From Mesorhizobium sp. CA8 (lineage in GTDB: Bacteria; Pseudomonadota; Alphaproteobacteria; Rhizobiales; Rhizobiaceae), in the NCBI RefSeq assembly GCF_020164955.1, contig NZ_JAIUHG010000001.1, positions 434,001-498,000 of the forward strand: 64,000 bases of DNA, written 5' to 3'. The notes below the pieces were generated by a model. That model made no database searches, had not been told where the DNA came from, and saw only the letters and a program-made list of their open reading frames with translations. This document shows positions 16,861-36,074 of the stretch, piece by piece (the first letter of the stretch is position 1; every line of letters starts with the position of its first letter). Position numbers and translations under genes: made by a program.

Positions 16861-17685
16861 GTGGCAACTCTATAATTGGTGCGGATTTACTCGAATTAAG
16901 CAGGGAACCACTGCAAGCGGAAGACCCGAAGTACAGCGGATCACTTTGACGCGGTGGCGACCGTGCACTGTGAGCGGCATCCATCGCGCTGTCGGGAAAG
17001 CTCTCGGCGTAGAAGCGGCTGCGGCCTCCAAATCGCATTCTCTGGCATTGCGTGTTCCTTTCGATCTGAAGCCAGGATTCCGTCTTTGTTCCTACCTAGC
17101 GAGTGGGGGGAAAGGCGGTAGCGCTCCTCCGATTCGAACCCCCGATGGCGAGCGCACGGCCCGAGTTTGCCCCAATCCGTGACAGGAAGTCCAATCTCTT
17201 TCATAAGCGCACGCAATTCGGCTGGAGGAGCAGACAGAACGTTCGAAAAGCTTCCAAGAACCCGGCCAAATTGGATGCTCTTTGGATACGTGCCTCCACG
17301 AGTTTCTTTAGTTGCCGCAGCCGTTGCTGTTCTGCAAGCAAATCAACGGGTTGCCGAGGGCCCCGCGAACTCGCCTAGTGTCATTTGCAGTCGACAGCAC
17401 CAGATCAAAGCCGTTTTGACCAAGGGTTAATCGCTCATCTGCTGGTCTCCAAACACAGTGACCGTGGCTGACCTCGTTGGACCGGCACTTGGCTGGTGGT
17501 GCGATGGTTGAGCGCCTGGGCGGGATGGCTTCAATTGAAGGGAGACGCGCTACCAGTTCTGCAATGTCTGAATGAAGCGGCCATGAACTTTCGCTGAATG
17601 GAGCCTTCAGCCTCCATTCGGGCCGAACCTCCTACAAAGGGGCCGTCCAACCCCGCGGTCCCTACCGCATCGAAGGAGAAGTCCC
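16861..17685. other. Intergenic region between glycan and curli loci
   Basis: About 825 bp without a supported gene. It contains the right copy of the flanking direct repeat (17213-17287). Next to it a minus frame (AELRALMKEIGLPVTDWGKL) looks like old coding sequence but has no family I can name. The promoter of the first curlin gene is expected just before 17686. Confidence 0.4.
17213..17287. repeat. Direct repeat, right copy (flank of glycan cassette)
   Basis: Bases 17241-17263 are identical to 11107-11129, same orientation, with diverged similarity on both sides. It closes off the interval holding the acyltransferase and three glycan genes. Confidence 0.65.
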
Positions 17686-18123
17686 ATGACCCGTACATCA
17701 GTCGTCGCCGCAGCCCTTGCCGCCGTCGTCGGCTTCACCGCCGTCGCGCCCGCGATGGCCAACAACGTCAACATCGAACAATATGGCTGGCGCAATTCCG
17801 CCGGCGGCGCCCAGCACGGCTACCGCAACCGCATACACGTTTATCAGGATGGCCGCTTCAACACCGCCATAGGCCAGCAATATGGTCATCGCAACCGGTC
17901 GGTGATCGGGCAGCAGGGCGTCAACAATTACGGAGCGACCTATCAGTACGGCAGCCGGAACGCCGCAGGTATTGCCCAGTTCGGCTCGAACCACACCGCG
18001 ATCCTGACACAGGACGGCAACGGCAACATCGCCGCCGGCGTCCAGGTCGGCCACGGGTGCAATGCCGACGTCAGCCAAGGTGGCAGCGGCAACGTCGCCG
18101 CCTTCGTCCAGGACTGCCCCTGA
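17686..18123 (+). CDS. Curlin-repeat protein (CsgA/CsgB-like amyloid subunit)
   Basis: A 145-residue exported protein behind a strong GAAGGAGAAG site. A signal peptide (MTRTSVVAAALAAVVGFTAV...AMA) is followed by about five curlin-type repeats with the period of 20-odd residues: NIEQYGWRN, VYQDGRFN, IGQQYGHRN, IGQQGVNN, YQYGSRN, IAQFGSNH, LTQDGNGN. Each has the Q-x-G-x-x-N core of curli fibres. The C-terminus has a Cys pair (HGCNADV... QDCP). It should be exported and polymerise as an extracellular amyloid. It is the first gene of a three-gene curli set on the plus strand. Confidence 0.85.
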   Translation: MTRTSVVAAALAAVVGFTAVAPAMANNVNIEQYGWRNSAGGAQHGYRNRIHVYQDGRFNTAIGQQYGHRNRSVIGQQGVNNYGATYQYGSRNAAGIAQFGSNHTAILTQDGNGNIAAGVQVGHGCNADVSQGGSGNVAAFVQDCP

Positions 18124-18193
18124 ACCGTGGACGGTCGGCAAGGTCGGCAAGAGTGGTGTCGGCCACCGTCCTGCAATCACAAGGAGATGATCC

Positions 18194-18592
18194 ATGACCA
18201 AACTGGATAAGCGAACAGCAGCGGCATCTGCCGCGTTCCTGGCTGTGATCGTCGCCAGCGCGACTGCCGCGACGGCCGGCAAGGATGGCTCGAATTCCGG
18301 ACCGCTGCGATGCGAGATCCGGGACACGCTCCAAGGCGACGCCATCCTGCTCGAGCCCATGGTTTATGCCGACGAGAGCATTAACGGCACCTACAAGGTC
18401 AGCGTCTCCCGTGGTGGCAGATCCGGCTCCGCCAATATCCGGCAGGAGGGCGCCTTTGACGCCCGTCCGGGCAATCCGGTGTCGCTTGGCCAGATGAGTG
18501 TCGAGGGGAATGGCGCCTATGAGGTTGAGCTGAAAGTGACCGCAGGCGCGGCGAGTGTCAGTTGCGTCAAACAGGTGTCCGGCGCGACCTGA
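18194..18592 (+). CDS. csgH: CsgH-like curli chaperone
   Basis: A 132-residue periplasmic protein (site AAGGAGATGATCC, ATG 18194). After a signal peptide ending near ATAATAG, the mature part (GPLRCEIRDTLQGDAILLEP, then GTYKVSVSRGGRSGSANIRQ, ending GAASVSCVKQV) fits the beta-sandwich of CsgH, the alphaproteobacterial protein that keeps CsgA-type subunits from aggregating in the periplasm. Two Cys residues could form the disulfide joining first and last strands. It lies between two curlin genes, which supports the call. Assignment is by pattern and context, not by search. Confidence 0.75.
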   Translation: MTKLDKRTAAASAAFLAVIVASATAATAGKDGSNSGPLRCEIRDTLQGDAILLEPMVYADESINGTYKVSVSRGGRSGSANIRQEGAFDARPGNPVSLGQMSVEGNGAYEVELKVTAGAASVSCVKQVSGAT

Positions 18593-18621
18593 GCGCCGGC
18601 TATCTTCGAGCATCGAAAGGA

Positions 18622-18652
18622 GGGCTCTGGGCAACCGGAGCCCTTCATTTTC
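18622..18652 (+). terminator. Rho-independent terminator after csgH
   Basis: GGGCTCTGG-GCAA-CCGGAGCCC forms a nine-pair stem with one wobble and a GCAA tetraloop, followed by TTCATTTT. It sits 30 bp past the csgH stop. Confidence 0.65.
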
Positions 18653-18851
18653 ATCAAACCGGAACGACTGCAGTGCGCGGTGGATTTCCACCCGGAGTGA
18701 TGCAAAACCAAGTATTTAAGGCTTCGGCGGTTCCGTCGAAGGCGGCGCCGCTCCAAGTCTTGAACCGCGGCTGAACGAACCCTTCCACCACGGTTCAGCT
18801 TCGCCGTGCGACTGTGGCGCATCAGATGATGAAGCCACAAGGAGAGGCATC

Positions 18852-19268
18852 ATGAACCGCCAGGTCACAAAACTTATCGCCGCCATCGCGCTCGCGAGCG
18901 CCGTCGGCCTGCCCCTCTTCTGCGCTCCGGCGAAGGCGGGCGGTTCGATCGGGTTCTACTACTCGCCTCCGACGGCTCGCGATGCGCGGGCGCTGGATCT
19001 CGGCCTGCGCGCCTATTCGGTTTACAAAGGGCTGCGTAGCGCTGCCCATATCAGGCAGCGCGGGTGGAACAACCGTGCCGGCATAGGTCAGGACGGAGCC
19101 GGCAATCTCGGCATAATTCGACAGGAGGGCAGCGGACACTCCGCTACCCTGCGCCAGAACGGCAACGACAATTCCTACGGTATCTTCCAGTTTGGCCGAA
19201 ACACCGACGCCGACGTCGTGCAGGCCGGCGACAGGCAGAGCGGCGCGGCTTTCCTGTTCGGGTGGTAG
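18852..19268 (+). CDS. Second curlin-repeat protein (CsgB-like)
   Basis: A 138-residue exported protein (ATG 18852 after GGAGAGG). The signal peptide (LIAAIALASAVGLPLFCAPAKA) is followed by a non-repeat segment (about residues 33-62) and then four curlin repeats: IRQRGWNN, IGQDGAGN, IRQEGSGH, LRQNGNDN, then FQFGRNTD and VVQAGDRQ. The non-repeat head and fewer repeats suggest a nucleator or minor subunit (inference). It has its own leader of about 260 bp after the terminator behind csgH, so it may be transcribed separately. Confidence 0.8.
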   Translation: MNRQVTKLIAAIALASAVGLPLFCAPAKAGGSIGFYYSPPTARDARALDLGLRAYSVYKGLRSAAHIRQRGWNNRAGIGQDGAGNLGIIRQEGSGHSATLRQNGNDNSYGIFQFGRNTDADVVQAGDRQSGAAFLFGW

Positions 19269-19329
19269 GCAGAAATCGCCTGGTTGCGGATACGTGACGA
19301 CTGTCCGGCACGCATCCGCCGCCGATGAT

Positions 19330-19480
19330 CGATTGCGCCCGCGAGGCCCGCAACCATTGCCTCGGAGACGCTATCGAGGGCTGCGGTCGGAACGCCCGGC
19401 GAGACGAACGTTTCCCGCCAGACACAATCCAGAAACATCCAGGAAAAACTCCAGAAATCATTCAACCGTATTGTGCTCAA
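19330..19480 (-). pseudogene. Possible DUF982 fragment
   Basis: The minus strand has ALDSVSEAMVAGLAG preceded by WRETFVSPGVPTA, resembling the DUF982 protein at 22154-22456 (EEVDSVSEAMVFL). At DNA level 25 bp (19353-19377 versus 22365-22389) differ at one base. The rest of the domain is missing. This is either a degraded copy or a chance-conserved block. Confidence 0.35.
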
Positions 19481-19536
19481 GAGGGTCAGTTCATCGGCTG
19501 CAGCAGTGCTGCACTTGCTCGGGTTTGCGACAAGCG

Positions 19537-19839
19537 ATGCACAGAATCTCGATCAACTTGATGGGTGCGTTGCTCAGCTTGTCGCTTACCGCGGCAGCGA
19601 CCGGAATCCCCACCTCAAAGGTGGCACCGCTCACCCGGACCGAGCGCTGCACCAATCTTAGCCGTCAAGTTGACGAAGCCCTCAAAACGCATGCCGCGGC
19701 AATGCAGGTCACCGCGGCGAAGGCTCTTCAGAGAAAGGGAAACCGGTACTGCGCCAAGAAGAAAGAGGCGCAGGGGATCCGGATGTTCGCGAAAGCTTTG
19801 AAGCTGCTCGGAGTGACACCCATCGATCCAGATGAGTGA
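19537..19839 (+). CDS. Small exported hypothetical protein
   Basis: A 100-residue protein from ATG 19537 (ATG 19561 possible). A signal-peptide-like start (LMGALLSLSLTAAATG) is followed by a helical, basic mature part with three Cys-bearing spots (RCTNLSRQVDEAL, RYCAKKKEAQGIRMF) and a short Asp/Glu tail. It probably resides in the periplasm. Nothing beyond the export signal is recognised. It precedes another small exported gene by 36 bp on the same strand. Confidence 0.6.
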   Translation: MHRISINLMGALLSLSLTAAATGIPTSKVAPLTRTERCTNLSRQVDEALKTHAAAMQVTAAKALQRKGNRYCAKKKEAQGIRMFAKALKLLGVTPIDPDE

Positions 19840-19875
19840 CGCTCAAACCCGACTTGCCAAACAAGGAACAGGCAC

Positions 19876-20136
19876 ATGAAAAAGTCTCTTCTGTCCGTCG
19901 TCGGTCTTGCATTCGCGCTCGCCGTCTCGATGCCAGTTCTCGGTCCCAACAACGCCGCTGCGGCTACAAAGCCGGCGCCGGCAGCGACGGCCGCAACTAG
20001 CTCAGCGCCCGCTTCGGATGCTATGACCACGAAGAAGCACGTCACGAAGGCCTGCAAGGTGACCAGGAAGCACAAGTGCCCAGTCAGGCACAAGAGGGGC
20101 GCCGCCAAGAAGGCAGCCCCCAAGAAGGCCTATTAA
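19876..20136 (+). CDS. Small lysine-rich exported protein
   Basis: An 86-residue protein (ATG 19876 with AAGGAACAGGC before it). The signal peptide (MKKSLLSVVGLAFALAVSMP) is followed by an Ala/Pro/Thr stretch and then a very basic tail (KKHVTKACKVTRKHKCPVRH, RGAAKKAAPKKAY) with two Cys. Low complexity suggests an unstructured periplasmic or surface protein that could bind anionic polymers (inference). A terminator follows directly. No family assigned. Confidence 0.65.
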   Translation: MKKSLLSVVGLAFALAVSMPVLGPNNAAAATKPAPAATAATSSAPASDAMTTKKHVTKACKVTRKHKCPVRHKRGAAKKAAPKKAY

Positions 20137-20156
20137 GCCTTGCAGTATTGCAAAAG

Positions 20157-35257: not shown

Positions 35258-35272
35258 GAACACAACTGGAAC
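35258..35272. promoter_or_regulatory. SOS box (LexA operator) upstream of lexA
   Basis: GAAC-ACAACTG-GAAC, the exact GAAC-N7-GAAC form of the alphaproteobacterial LexA operator. A weaker element, GTTC-N7-GTTT, lies at 35284-35298. Both are between moeA and lexA, 36-76 bp before the lexA start, fitting autorepression. Confidence 0.85.
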
Positions 35273-35333: not shown

Positions 35334-36074
35334 ATGCTGACGCGCAAACAACATGAACTTCTGATGTTCATCCACGAAAGGCTGAAGGAAAGCGGGATTC
35401 CGCCGTCTTTCGACGAGATGAAGGAAGCGCTCGACCTCGCCTCCAAGTCTGGCATCCACCGGCTGATCACGGCGCTGGAGGAACGCGGCTTCATTCGCCG
35501 GCTGCCGAACCGGGCGCGCGCGCTGGAAGTGCTGCGCCTGCCCGACTCGATCGCGCCCGGCCTCAATGCGGCGAAGAAGTTTTCGCCGAGCGTCATCCAG
35601 GGCAGCCTGGGTCAGAACAATCTCAGCCGTCAGGTGAAGCCGGCGGCGCCGTCGCGCACCCCGGCACCAAGCAATGACGACGATGCCGGCTCCGCCGTGT
35701 CCATTCCGGTGATGGGCCGCATCGCCGCCGGCGTGCCGATCGACGCCATCCAGCACCAGACGCATTCGATCACGGTGCCGCCGGACATGATCGCCGGCGG
35801 CGAGCATTATGCGCTGGAGGTCAAGGGCGACTCGATGATCGAGGCCGGCATCTTCGACGGCGATACCGTCATCATCCGCAACGCCAACACGGCAAGCCCG
35901 GGCGAGATCGTGGTGGCACTGGTCGACGACCAGGAAGCGACGCTCAAGCGCTTCCGCCGCAAGGGTGCCTCGATCGCGCTGGAGGCGGCCAACCCCGCCT
36001 ACGAAACCCGCATCTTCGGGCCGGATCGGGTGAAGGTGCAGGGCAAGCTTGTCGGGCTGATCCGCCGCTACTGA
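35334..36074 (+). CDS. lexA: LexA repressor
   Basis: A 246-residue SOS repressor. The winged helix is at residues 20-60 ([20 protein letters not shown], then [13 protein letters not shown]). The Ala-Gly cleavage site is in GRIAAGVP; the catalytic Ser is in [15 protein letters not shown] and the Lys in EATLKRF. The linker ([19 protein letters not shown]) is longer than in E. coli LexA, as is common in Rhizobiales. Its 3' end overlaps comEC, which is convergent, by 7 bp. It is preceded by its own SOS box. Confidence 0.97.

Follow-up and report, generated by a model that had tools for sequence, protein, structure and literature searches.

Genes of the curA-csgH-curB locus

The stretch analyzed here (64,000 nucleotides, hereafter the window) of the genome of Mesorhizobium sp. 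CA8, a soil relative of legume symbionts, carries a three-gene curli locus on the forward strand, in which two curlin genes flank csgH and for which no exporter of the CsgG type was recognized in the genome. curA (positions 17686 to 18123) encodes a major-type curlin of 145 amino acids, csgH (18194 to 18592) encodes a 132-amino-acid protein of the periplasmic, CsgC-like, amyloid-inhibiting chaperone type, and curB (18852 to 19268) encodes a 138-amino-acid putative minor or nucleator-type curlin. The open reading frames (ORFs) of both curlins match the Pfam Curlin_rpt profile, with E values of 6.8e-18 (64.8 bits) and 1e-10 (41.8 bits) at a cut-off of 20.7, and across the 6.16-Mb genome (57 contigs, completeness 100%) a profile search passes this cut-off nowhere except in these two ORFs. 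The CsgH protein matches Pfam PF21112 (8.1e-18, 64.7 bits; cut-off 27) and NCBIfam CsgH_alph NF041112 (92.1 bits; cut-off 35), and its residues 38 to 124 are similar to the solved CsgH of Rhodopseudomonas palustris (2n59; E value of 7.3e-8). It resembles that protein also in its far-apart cysteines, C40 and C124, which are widely spaced as in the definition of CsgH and do not form a CxC motif. These matches bear out the arrangement that a preliminary description of this DNA had read from its letters. Five named CsgH relatives in genome contigs are all from Mesorhizobium, with identities of 76 to 80%, in a list that may omit records from the same or a very near genome. The Escherichia coli CsgB profile scores 71.2 bits with CurA and 45.1 bits with CurB, both under its 165-bit cut-off, and thus does not single out CurB.

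Loci of this composition have been in print since 2012, and the kind is known. Dueholm et al., who named csgH in 2012, reported that in many Alphaproteobacteria nothing but the curlins could be identified and that the missing components must have substitutes there (PMC3521004), and a 2025 review in Advanced Science counts CsgA/B+CsgH as one of the five most frequent curli compositions (PMC12822426). The window locus fits this cluster type, having its curlins and csgH within 5 kb and no csgE, csgF, or csgG in the cluster, as do the other alphaproteobacterial clusters of the type. In a 2023 study in Nature Communications, 1,033 of 43,279 CsgA genomes lacked CsgG (PMC10192328), and a 2014 Agrobacterium review described curlin-like clusters of A. 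tumefaciens and R. etli strains as having no assigned role (PMC4018554). The CsgH of R. palustris inhibits amyloid formation by E. coli CsgA (Sci Rep 2016, PMC4838910). Like the type VIII system of E. coli (csgBAC-csgDEFG), the window locus encodes curlin repeats, a subunit- and nucleator-like pair, and an Ig-like (immunoglobulin-like) periplasmic inhibitor; unlike that system, it has CsgH in place of CsgC and a CurB with a Gly-Trp end, and no CsgG, CsgE, or CsgF was found in the genome.

Search for a CsgG-family exporter

That csgG, csgE, and csgF are missing from the window had been noted in the preliminary description, and the observation extends to the genome. The CsgG profile PF03783 has no match at an E value of ≤0.001 across all 57 contigs, and CsgF and CsgE have no match across the genome even at ≤10. 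PF03783 is positive in E. coli, Caulobacter, Synechococcus, and Bacteroides controls, and since it matches all four taxa, the profile is broad. A class-specific query (A2), built from six aligned alphaproteobacterial members of the CsgG family, recovers two of these six with E values of 1.2e-136 and 6.7e-142; its best match in the CA8 genome scores 12.2 bits with an E value of 0.18, and the open frames there are not CsgG-like by reading. The earlier suggestion that the secretion genes lie elsewhere thus finds no support, as the profile searches of the genome found none of CsgG, CsgE, and CsgF; the remaining options are export by another path and the absence of export.

CsgH was found in 18 of 150 genomes of the order, 30 of 146 Mesorhizobium genomes, and 6 of 385 genomes of the class, each count including the CA8 genome, which gives 52 distinct genomes. 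No CsgG-family match was found in 45 of these 52. PF03783 (E value of ≤0.001) matches the other seven (3 of 17 in the order, 1 of 30 in the genus, and 3 of 5 in the class), of which G008 is the sole genome where a CsgG was seen next to csgH, 2 kb apart; the match there spans only profile positions 5 to 79 of 210, and the curlin is of another type, with 599 amino acids. In the other six the match is far from csgH or on a different contig. The matches in G294 and G527, and less clearly that in G295, lie in hfaAB-like holdfast settings by reading and not beside curlins, and in G527 the gene and csgH are both on short contigs, so that their linkage cannot be judged. The match in G015 is a lone lipoprotein-like gene unlinked to csgH, that in G098 is at the threshold and has an mce-type neighborhood by reading, and that in G196 is at 7.70 Mb of a 7.78-Mb contig that carries csgH at 1.18 Mb. 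The holdfast Hfa system likewise consists of alphaproteobacterial surface amyloid-like proteins, and HfaB belongs to the CsgG family; in contrast to Caulobacter, this genome has no PF03783 match. CsgG-family genes are present at three loci of alphaproteobacteria outside the order (L137, L138, and L139), and in L138 and L139 they accompany small secreted proteins, a setting read as hfaAB-like, with the csgH genes of those genomes on other contigs.

Export through a CsgG-like pore beyond the reach of profiles is improbable. The CsgG profile does cover distant paralogues, and 7 of the 52 CsgH genomes have a match to it; set against this are its detection of CsgG in the four control taxa, the lack of a CsgG-like frame at the best A2 match, the hfaAB-like character of the matches in the three genomes from other orders, which lie away from curlins, and the absence of a conserved pore-type neighbor. 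In an all-against-all comparison of the loci, the families common to most of them are curA, csgH, curB, and ORFs in other frames over these genes. The next largest neighbor clusters are, by reading, ATP-binding cassette (ABC) transporter and dehydrogenase superfamilies at dispersed positions, the size of these clusters being raised by seven Mesorhizobium loci in synteny. The curlin family is co-oriented with csgH in 41 of the 43 stretches compared (one of the 43, L089, has no csgH), and in L084 no curlin was found beside csgH. The order curA-csgH-curB is the usual form of the system in the Hyphomicrobiales loci compared, and to call the locus reduced, as had been done, is therefore misleading: the triad is conserved, shows purifying selection, and mostly has its own operator.

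Copy number varies locally. Locus L074, from another family of the order (G040), has three csgH genes, five curlins, and five operator matches within 20 kb, a local amplification, and in the Mesorhizobium genome G280 two contigs together contain four CsgH matches (L090, L092, L095, and L097). Mutual exclusion of CsgH and CsgF was considered and set aside: the two do not co-occur in any of the 385 genomes of the class (6 positives each, 5 each over the cut-off), and as the overlap expected by chance is about 0.1, the zero is uninformative.

Cassette limits, operator, and selection

The DNA that the Mesorhizobium relatives have in common with the window is about 1.75 kb, in varied neighborhoods. 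By blastn of the whole window, the conserved cassette runs from about 17566 to 19353 (forward strand), its ends varying by tens of bases. Near-full-length homology, over nearly all of 17554 to 19353 and at 82 to 88%, occurs in 8 of 22 Mesorhizobium loci; in the other 14 the homology covers curA, mostly together with part of curB, at lower identity. Beyond the cassette there are single matches in L099, L100, and L109 only. When loci that share more than 5 kb are placed together, the 22 loci, drawn from the 30 CsgH-bearing Mesorhizobium genomes, fall into 14 neighborhood groups, a number that may be lower in truth because L094 and L100 are short contigs. CsgH is also found on 40 plasmid records (36 Rhizobium, 2 Mesorhizobium, and 2 Sinorhizobium), several of them nearly identical, and 13 of the 40 are typed as conjugative. 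Four plasmid stretches have csgH and two curlins and no annotated csgG in gene tables that are incomplete; on one, L153, the second curlin is 5 kb away. Either movement of the cassette as a unit or repeated loss would account for this distribution. On two Rhizobium plasmids (L150 and L153) the cassette adjoins EAL, diguanylate cyclase, or HD-GYP genes, which may be lineage specific. A general linkage to cyclic diguanylate genes was rejected, as four proteins recognized by motif (two GGDEF and two EAL) in 757 kb of loci are no obvious enrichment. Just 3' of the cassette, positions 19876 to 20136 (forward strand) encode a small and highly basic protein that looks secreted and weakly resembles the acid-shock protein Asr (E value of 0.013, below the cut-off), and the 0.7-kb segment from 19419 to 20139 has a 74% match in L100, close to another curlin cassette.

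Candidate operators precede both curlin genes. The curA site (17584 to 17619, forward strand), TGAAC-N6-TGAAT-N5-CTTC-N8-TTC, is 102 nucleotides (nt) before the start codon, and the curB site (18761 to 18796, forward strand), TGAAC-N6-TGAAC-N5-CTTC-N8-TTC, is 91 nt before the start codon. The consensus from the alignment of curA upstream regions, TGAACnnnnnCTGAAnGnnGCCTTCAGnnnCGGTTC, has four GAAC-type half-sites in a dyad with spacings of 11, 9, and 11. The pattern TGAAY-N6-TGAAY-N5-STTC-N8-TTC has 56 matches in 45 loci (886 kb), a set without L089, which has no csgH, and L152, which is the same plasmid stretch as L101. Forty matches lie before curA and 14 before curB, and the remaining two lie where curB begins, in L104 (frameshifted) and L094 (at a contig end). 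Elsewhere in the 886 kb there is no match, nor is there any in one Markov-1 simulation of equal DNA. Because the pattern was drawn from curA upstream regions, the curB sites, the fourth half-site, and the silent flanks are the more independent evidence. The fourth half-site, which lay outside an earlier pattern, has G, T, T, and C in 40, 41, 41, and 40 of 41 distinct sites. Within the 64-kb window, TGAAY-N6-TGAAY occurs at the curA and curB sites only, and in the 27% of the genome scanned (1.59 Mb and the window) other sites score ≤6, versus 43 to 48 for these two. Many Mesorhizobium curB genes have no operator, and none occurs in L071 or in five loci that carry csgF.

The curA-csgH pair and curB probably form two co-regulated transcription units. 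A possible terminator hairpin with a 12-bp stem and a T-rich tail lies between csgH and curB (18619 to 18646, forward strand); terminator-like sites number three in 3.3 kb versus 3.1 expected in shuffles, so that the hairpin says little by itself. A stricter script places a hairpin with a T tail in the curA-to-curB interval of 13 among 28 loci, at positions that are not all the same; the window is not one of the 13. Over the csgH 3' end and the hairpin (18571 to 18651, forward strand) there are sub-threshold Rfam matches to BjrC68 (19 bits; gathering score of 39) and sX12 (21.4 bits; gathering score of 106), and no match to a known RNA element exceeds an Rfam gathering score.

LexA is a candidate regulator only by virtue of half-site spacing, and the operator could be an SOS box that places the cassette under LexA control, although this is unlikely. 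The half-sites GAAC-N7-GAAC are spaced as in the SOS box of Caulobacter, GTTCN7GTTC (PMC6237742), a perfect GAAC-N7-GAAC is present in 23 of the 41 distinct sites and a perfect GTTC-N7-GTTC in 7, and an ORF read as lexA in the window (35334 to 36074, forward strand) is preceded by a GAAC-N7-GAAC box, GAACACAACTGGAAC, at 35258 to 35272. However, the curlin operator differs from the lexA promoter in being a four-half-site dyad with T ahead of GAAC, and deviations are frequent in its second half-site, which is GAAT in 17 of 41 sites. The window curA site has no perfect GAAC-N7-GAAC and the curB site one exact copy (18762 to 18776), and three such boxes in the window, versus 1.86 expected, are at chance level.

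The pairwise ratios of nonsynonymous to synonymous substitution (dN/dS; Nei-Gojobori) of the window genes against relatives chosen from Mesorhizobium are 0.06 to 0.13 for CurA, 0.23 to 0.55 for CsgH (11 relatives each), and 0.22 to 0.32 for CurB (10 relatives), and by these sequence comparisons all three genes look to be under purifying selection. The window locus is not degraded, as the triad recurs across Hyphomicrobiales. It is very improbable that the cassette is what remains of a curli operon that became nonfunctional with the loss of its exporter. Such a relic would account for the missing exporter and for the broken-looking copies met, a curB frameshift in one metagenome-assembled genome (L034) and one curA of four in G280 (L092), but it is disfavored by the low dN/dS and by termini and an operator that are conserved across many genera.

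Curlin termini and a possible route to the cell surface

The signal peptides of both curlins were judged by eye from the sequence. CurA has five Pfam curlin-repeat stretches, the first directly after the likely signal peptide, and a C-terminal cysteine pair (C125 and C144 in the window) that recurs at a distance of about 19 residues in 38 of 42 upstream curlins. In CurB about 33 to 35 residues, as read from the sequence, separate the first repeat from the likely signal peptide, and the long non-repeat head ascribed to it earlier is real and conserved among relatives, the nearest Mesorhizobium form being approximately GGSIGFYYSPxTARDARALDLGLRAYSLYNGLR. About 3.5 repeats (seven strands) follow, and the protein ends in Phe-Gly-Trp. 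An AlphaFold model of CurB from a shallow alignment (mean predicted local distance difference test [pLDDT] score of 61) has seven strands in the repeats and a low-confidence helix at residues 42 to 58 of the head, and a Foldseek search with it gives no match at an E value of ≤0.001; the CurA model is useless (pLDDT of 39). An amphipathic membrane helix in the head was rejected, as the hydrophobic moment over residues 42 to 62 is 0.07, with 94% of shuffles as high or higher, and in relatives other than L080 the moment is likewise not above shuffles.

The C-terminal Gly-Trp is present in 31 of 33 downstream curlins and is Gly-Trp-Arg in the other two. F, Y, or W is at position -3 in 29 of 33, F, L, or V at -5 in 31, and A at -7 in 28, the two Gly-Trp-Arg rows being counted one position off. 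No C-terminal Trp occurs in any of 12 frames from csgF- or csgG-linked loci, picked by a curlin-motif rule. With its last-position Trp, its mostly hydrophobic -3 and -5 residues, and its small -7 residue, the pattern resembles the beta-signals of outer-membrane proteins. CurB might thus be given, like such a protein, to the beta-barrel assembly machinery (BAM) by its aromatic-Gly-Trp end and be lodged in the outer membrane as the fiber seed. This is quite unlikely, however: a curlin strand alternates likewise by itself, the Trp may just cap the solenoid, and CurA has no such end, so that its export would not be explained.

The curlins may instead stay in the cell, as a periplasmic or envelope amyloid or as a soluble store freed by lysis or vesicles. 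This is rather unlikely. No exporter is linked to the cassette or recognizable in the genome, and the conserved cysteine pair of CurA could give a periplasmic disulfide. On the other hand, inhibitors of the CsgC/CsgH type are thought to keep subunits export competent (PMC4838910), and two co-conserved curlins, one nucleator-like and one subunit-like, would fit a surface fiber.

The reading that we prefer, with a probability of roughly one-half, is a CsgG-independent, self-contained curli cassette whose outer-membrane route is supplied by the host. CurA, as the main subunit, and CurB, as the likely nucleator, would enter the periplasm by their signal peptides via Sec, where CsgH would hold both unpolymerized. 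From there the curlins would pass to the cell surface along a route not encoded in the cassette and supplied by the hosts of the order, and at the surface CurB would seed CurA fibers. One shared regulator would bind the four-half-site operator before curA-csgH and before curB. A broader proposal is put forward more tentatively, namely, that curlins are displayed on the surface without a CsgG-family pore in Hyphomicrobiales, from a mobile 1.75-kb cassette of two units with a dedicated four-half-site operator, and that the nucleator is a distinct curlin class with a conserved head and a near-invariant Gly-Trp end that may itself target the outer membrane.

Several observations weigh against the preferred reading. 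A very divergent CsgG can escape profile searches, and no conserved exporter travels with the cassette within 10 kb at the loci compared, a few of which are short contigs. An exact operator is missing from nine of the 45 loci, namely, L071 (in G008, with the linked CsgG); L075, L080, and L085 (Cys-less CurA); L079; L087 and L150 (near misses); L092 (with the broken-looking curA); and L084 (where csgH has no curlin found beside it). The lack of a head like the N22 of CsgA, tried as a marker of CsgG independence, was rejected because curlins that start at the first repeat also occur in alphaproteobacterial loci with csgF, at least four of them (in L132, L133, L134, and L136), and L136 also has a 181-amino-acid curlin with a long head. 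Finally, the computed isoelectric point (pI) of CsgH is 5.0 versus 8.7 and 10.0 for the curlins, the reverse of the published relation, in which the pI of CsgH exceeds that of its subunit by more than 2 units (PMC4838910); in this the acidic CsgH and basic curlins of the window differ from the R. palustris work. Charge complementarity between CurA and CsgH was likewise discarded, with a rho of -0.06 over 13 genus means and -0.26 over 37 of 45 CsgH rows, those in which both proteins parse; within 20 Mesorhizobium rows, which are non-independent, it is -0.52.

How CsgG-less curlins leave the cell is a question raised in 2012. Compared with PMC3521004 and PMC12822426, as far as the available text of each goes, the present analysis adds the whole-genome absence test, the cassette limits, selection, the Gly-Trp end, the cysteine pair, and the operator. 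A literature search with thin cover of subscription journals found no report of the last three features and no answer on a rhizobial curlin export route or a curlin operator. The CurB end, the cysteine pair, the operator, and the stand-alone cassette make the export question testable, and a compact cassette with a defined operator provides handles on the regulator, the inducing condition, and the export route. If the curlins are exported, they would represent a rhizobial fiber system, both chromosomal and plasmid borne, that csgG-based surveys have overlooked.

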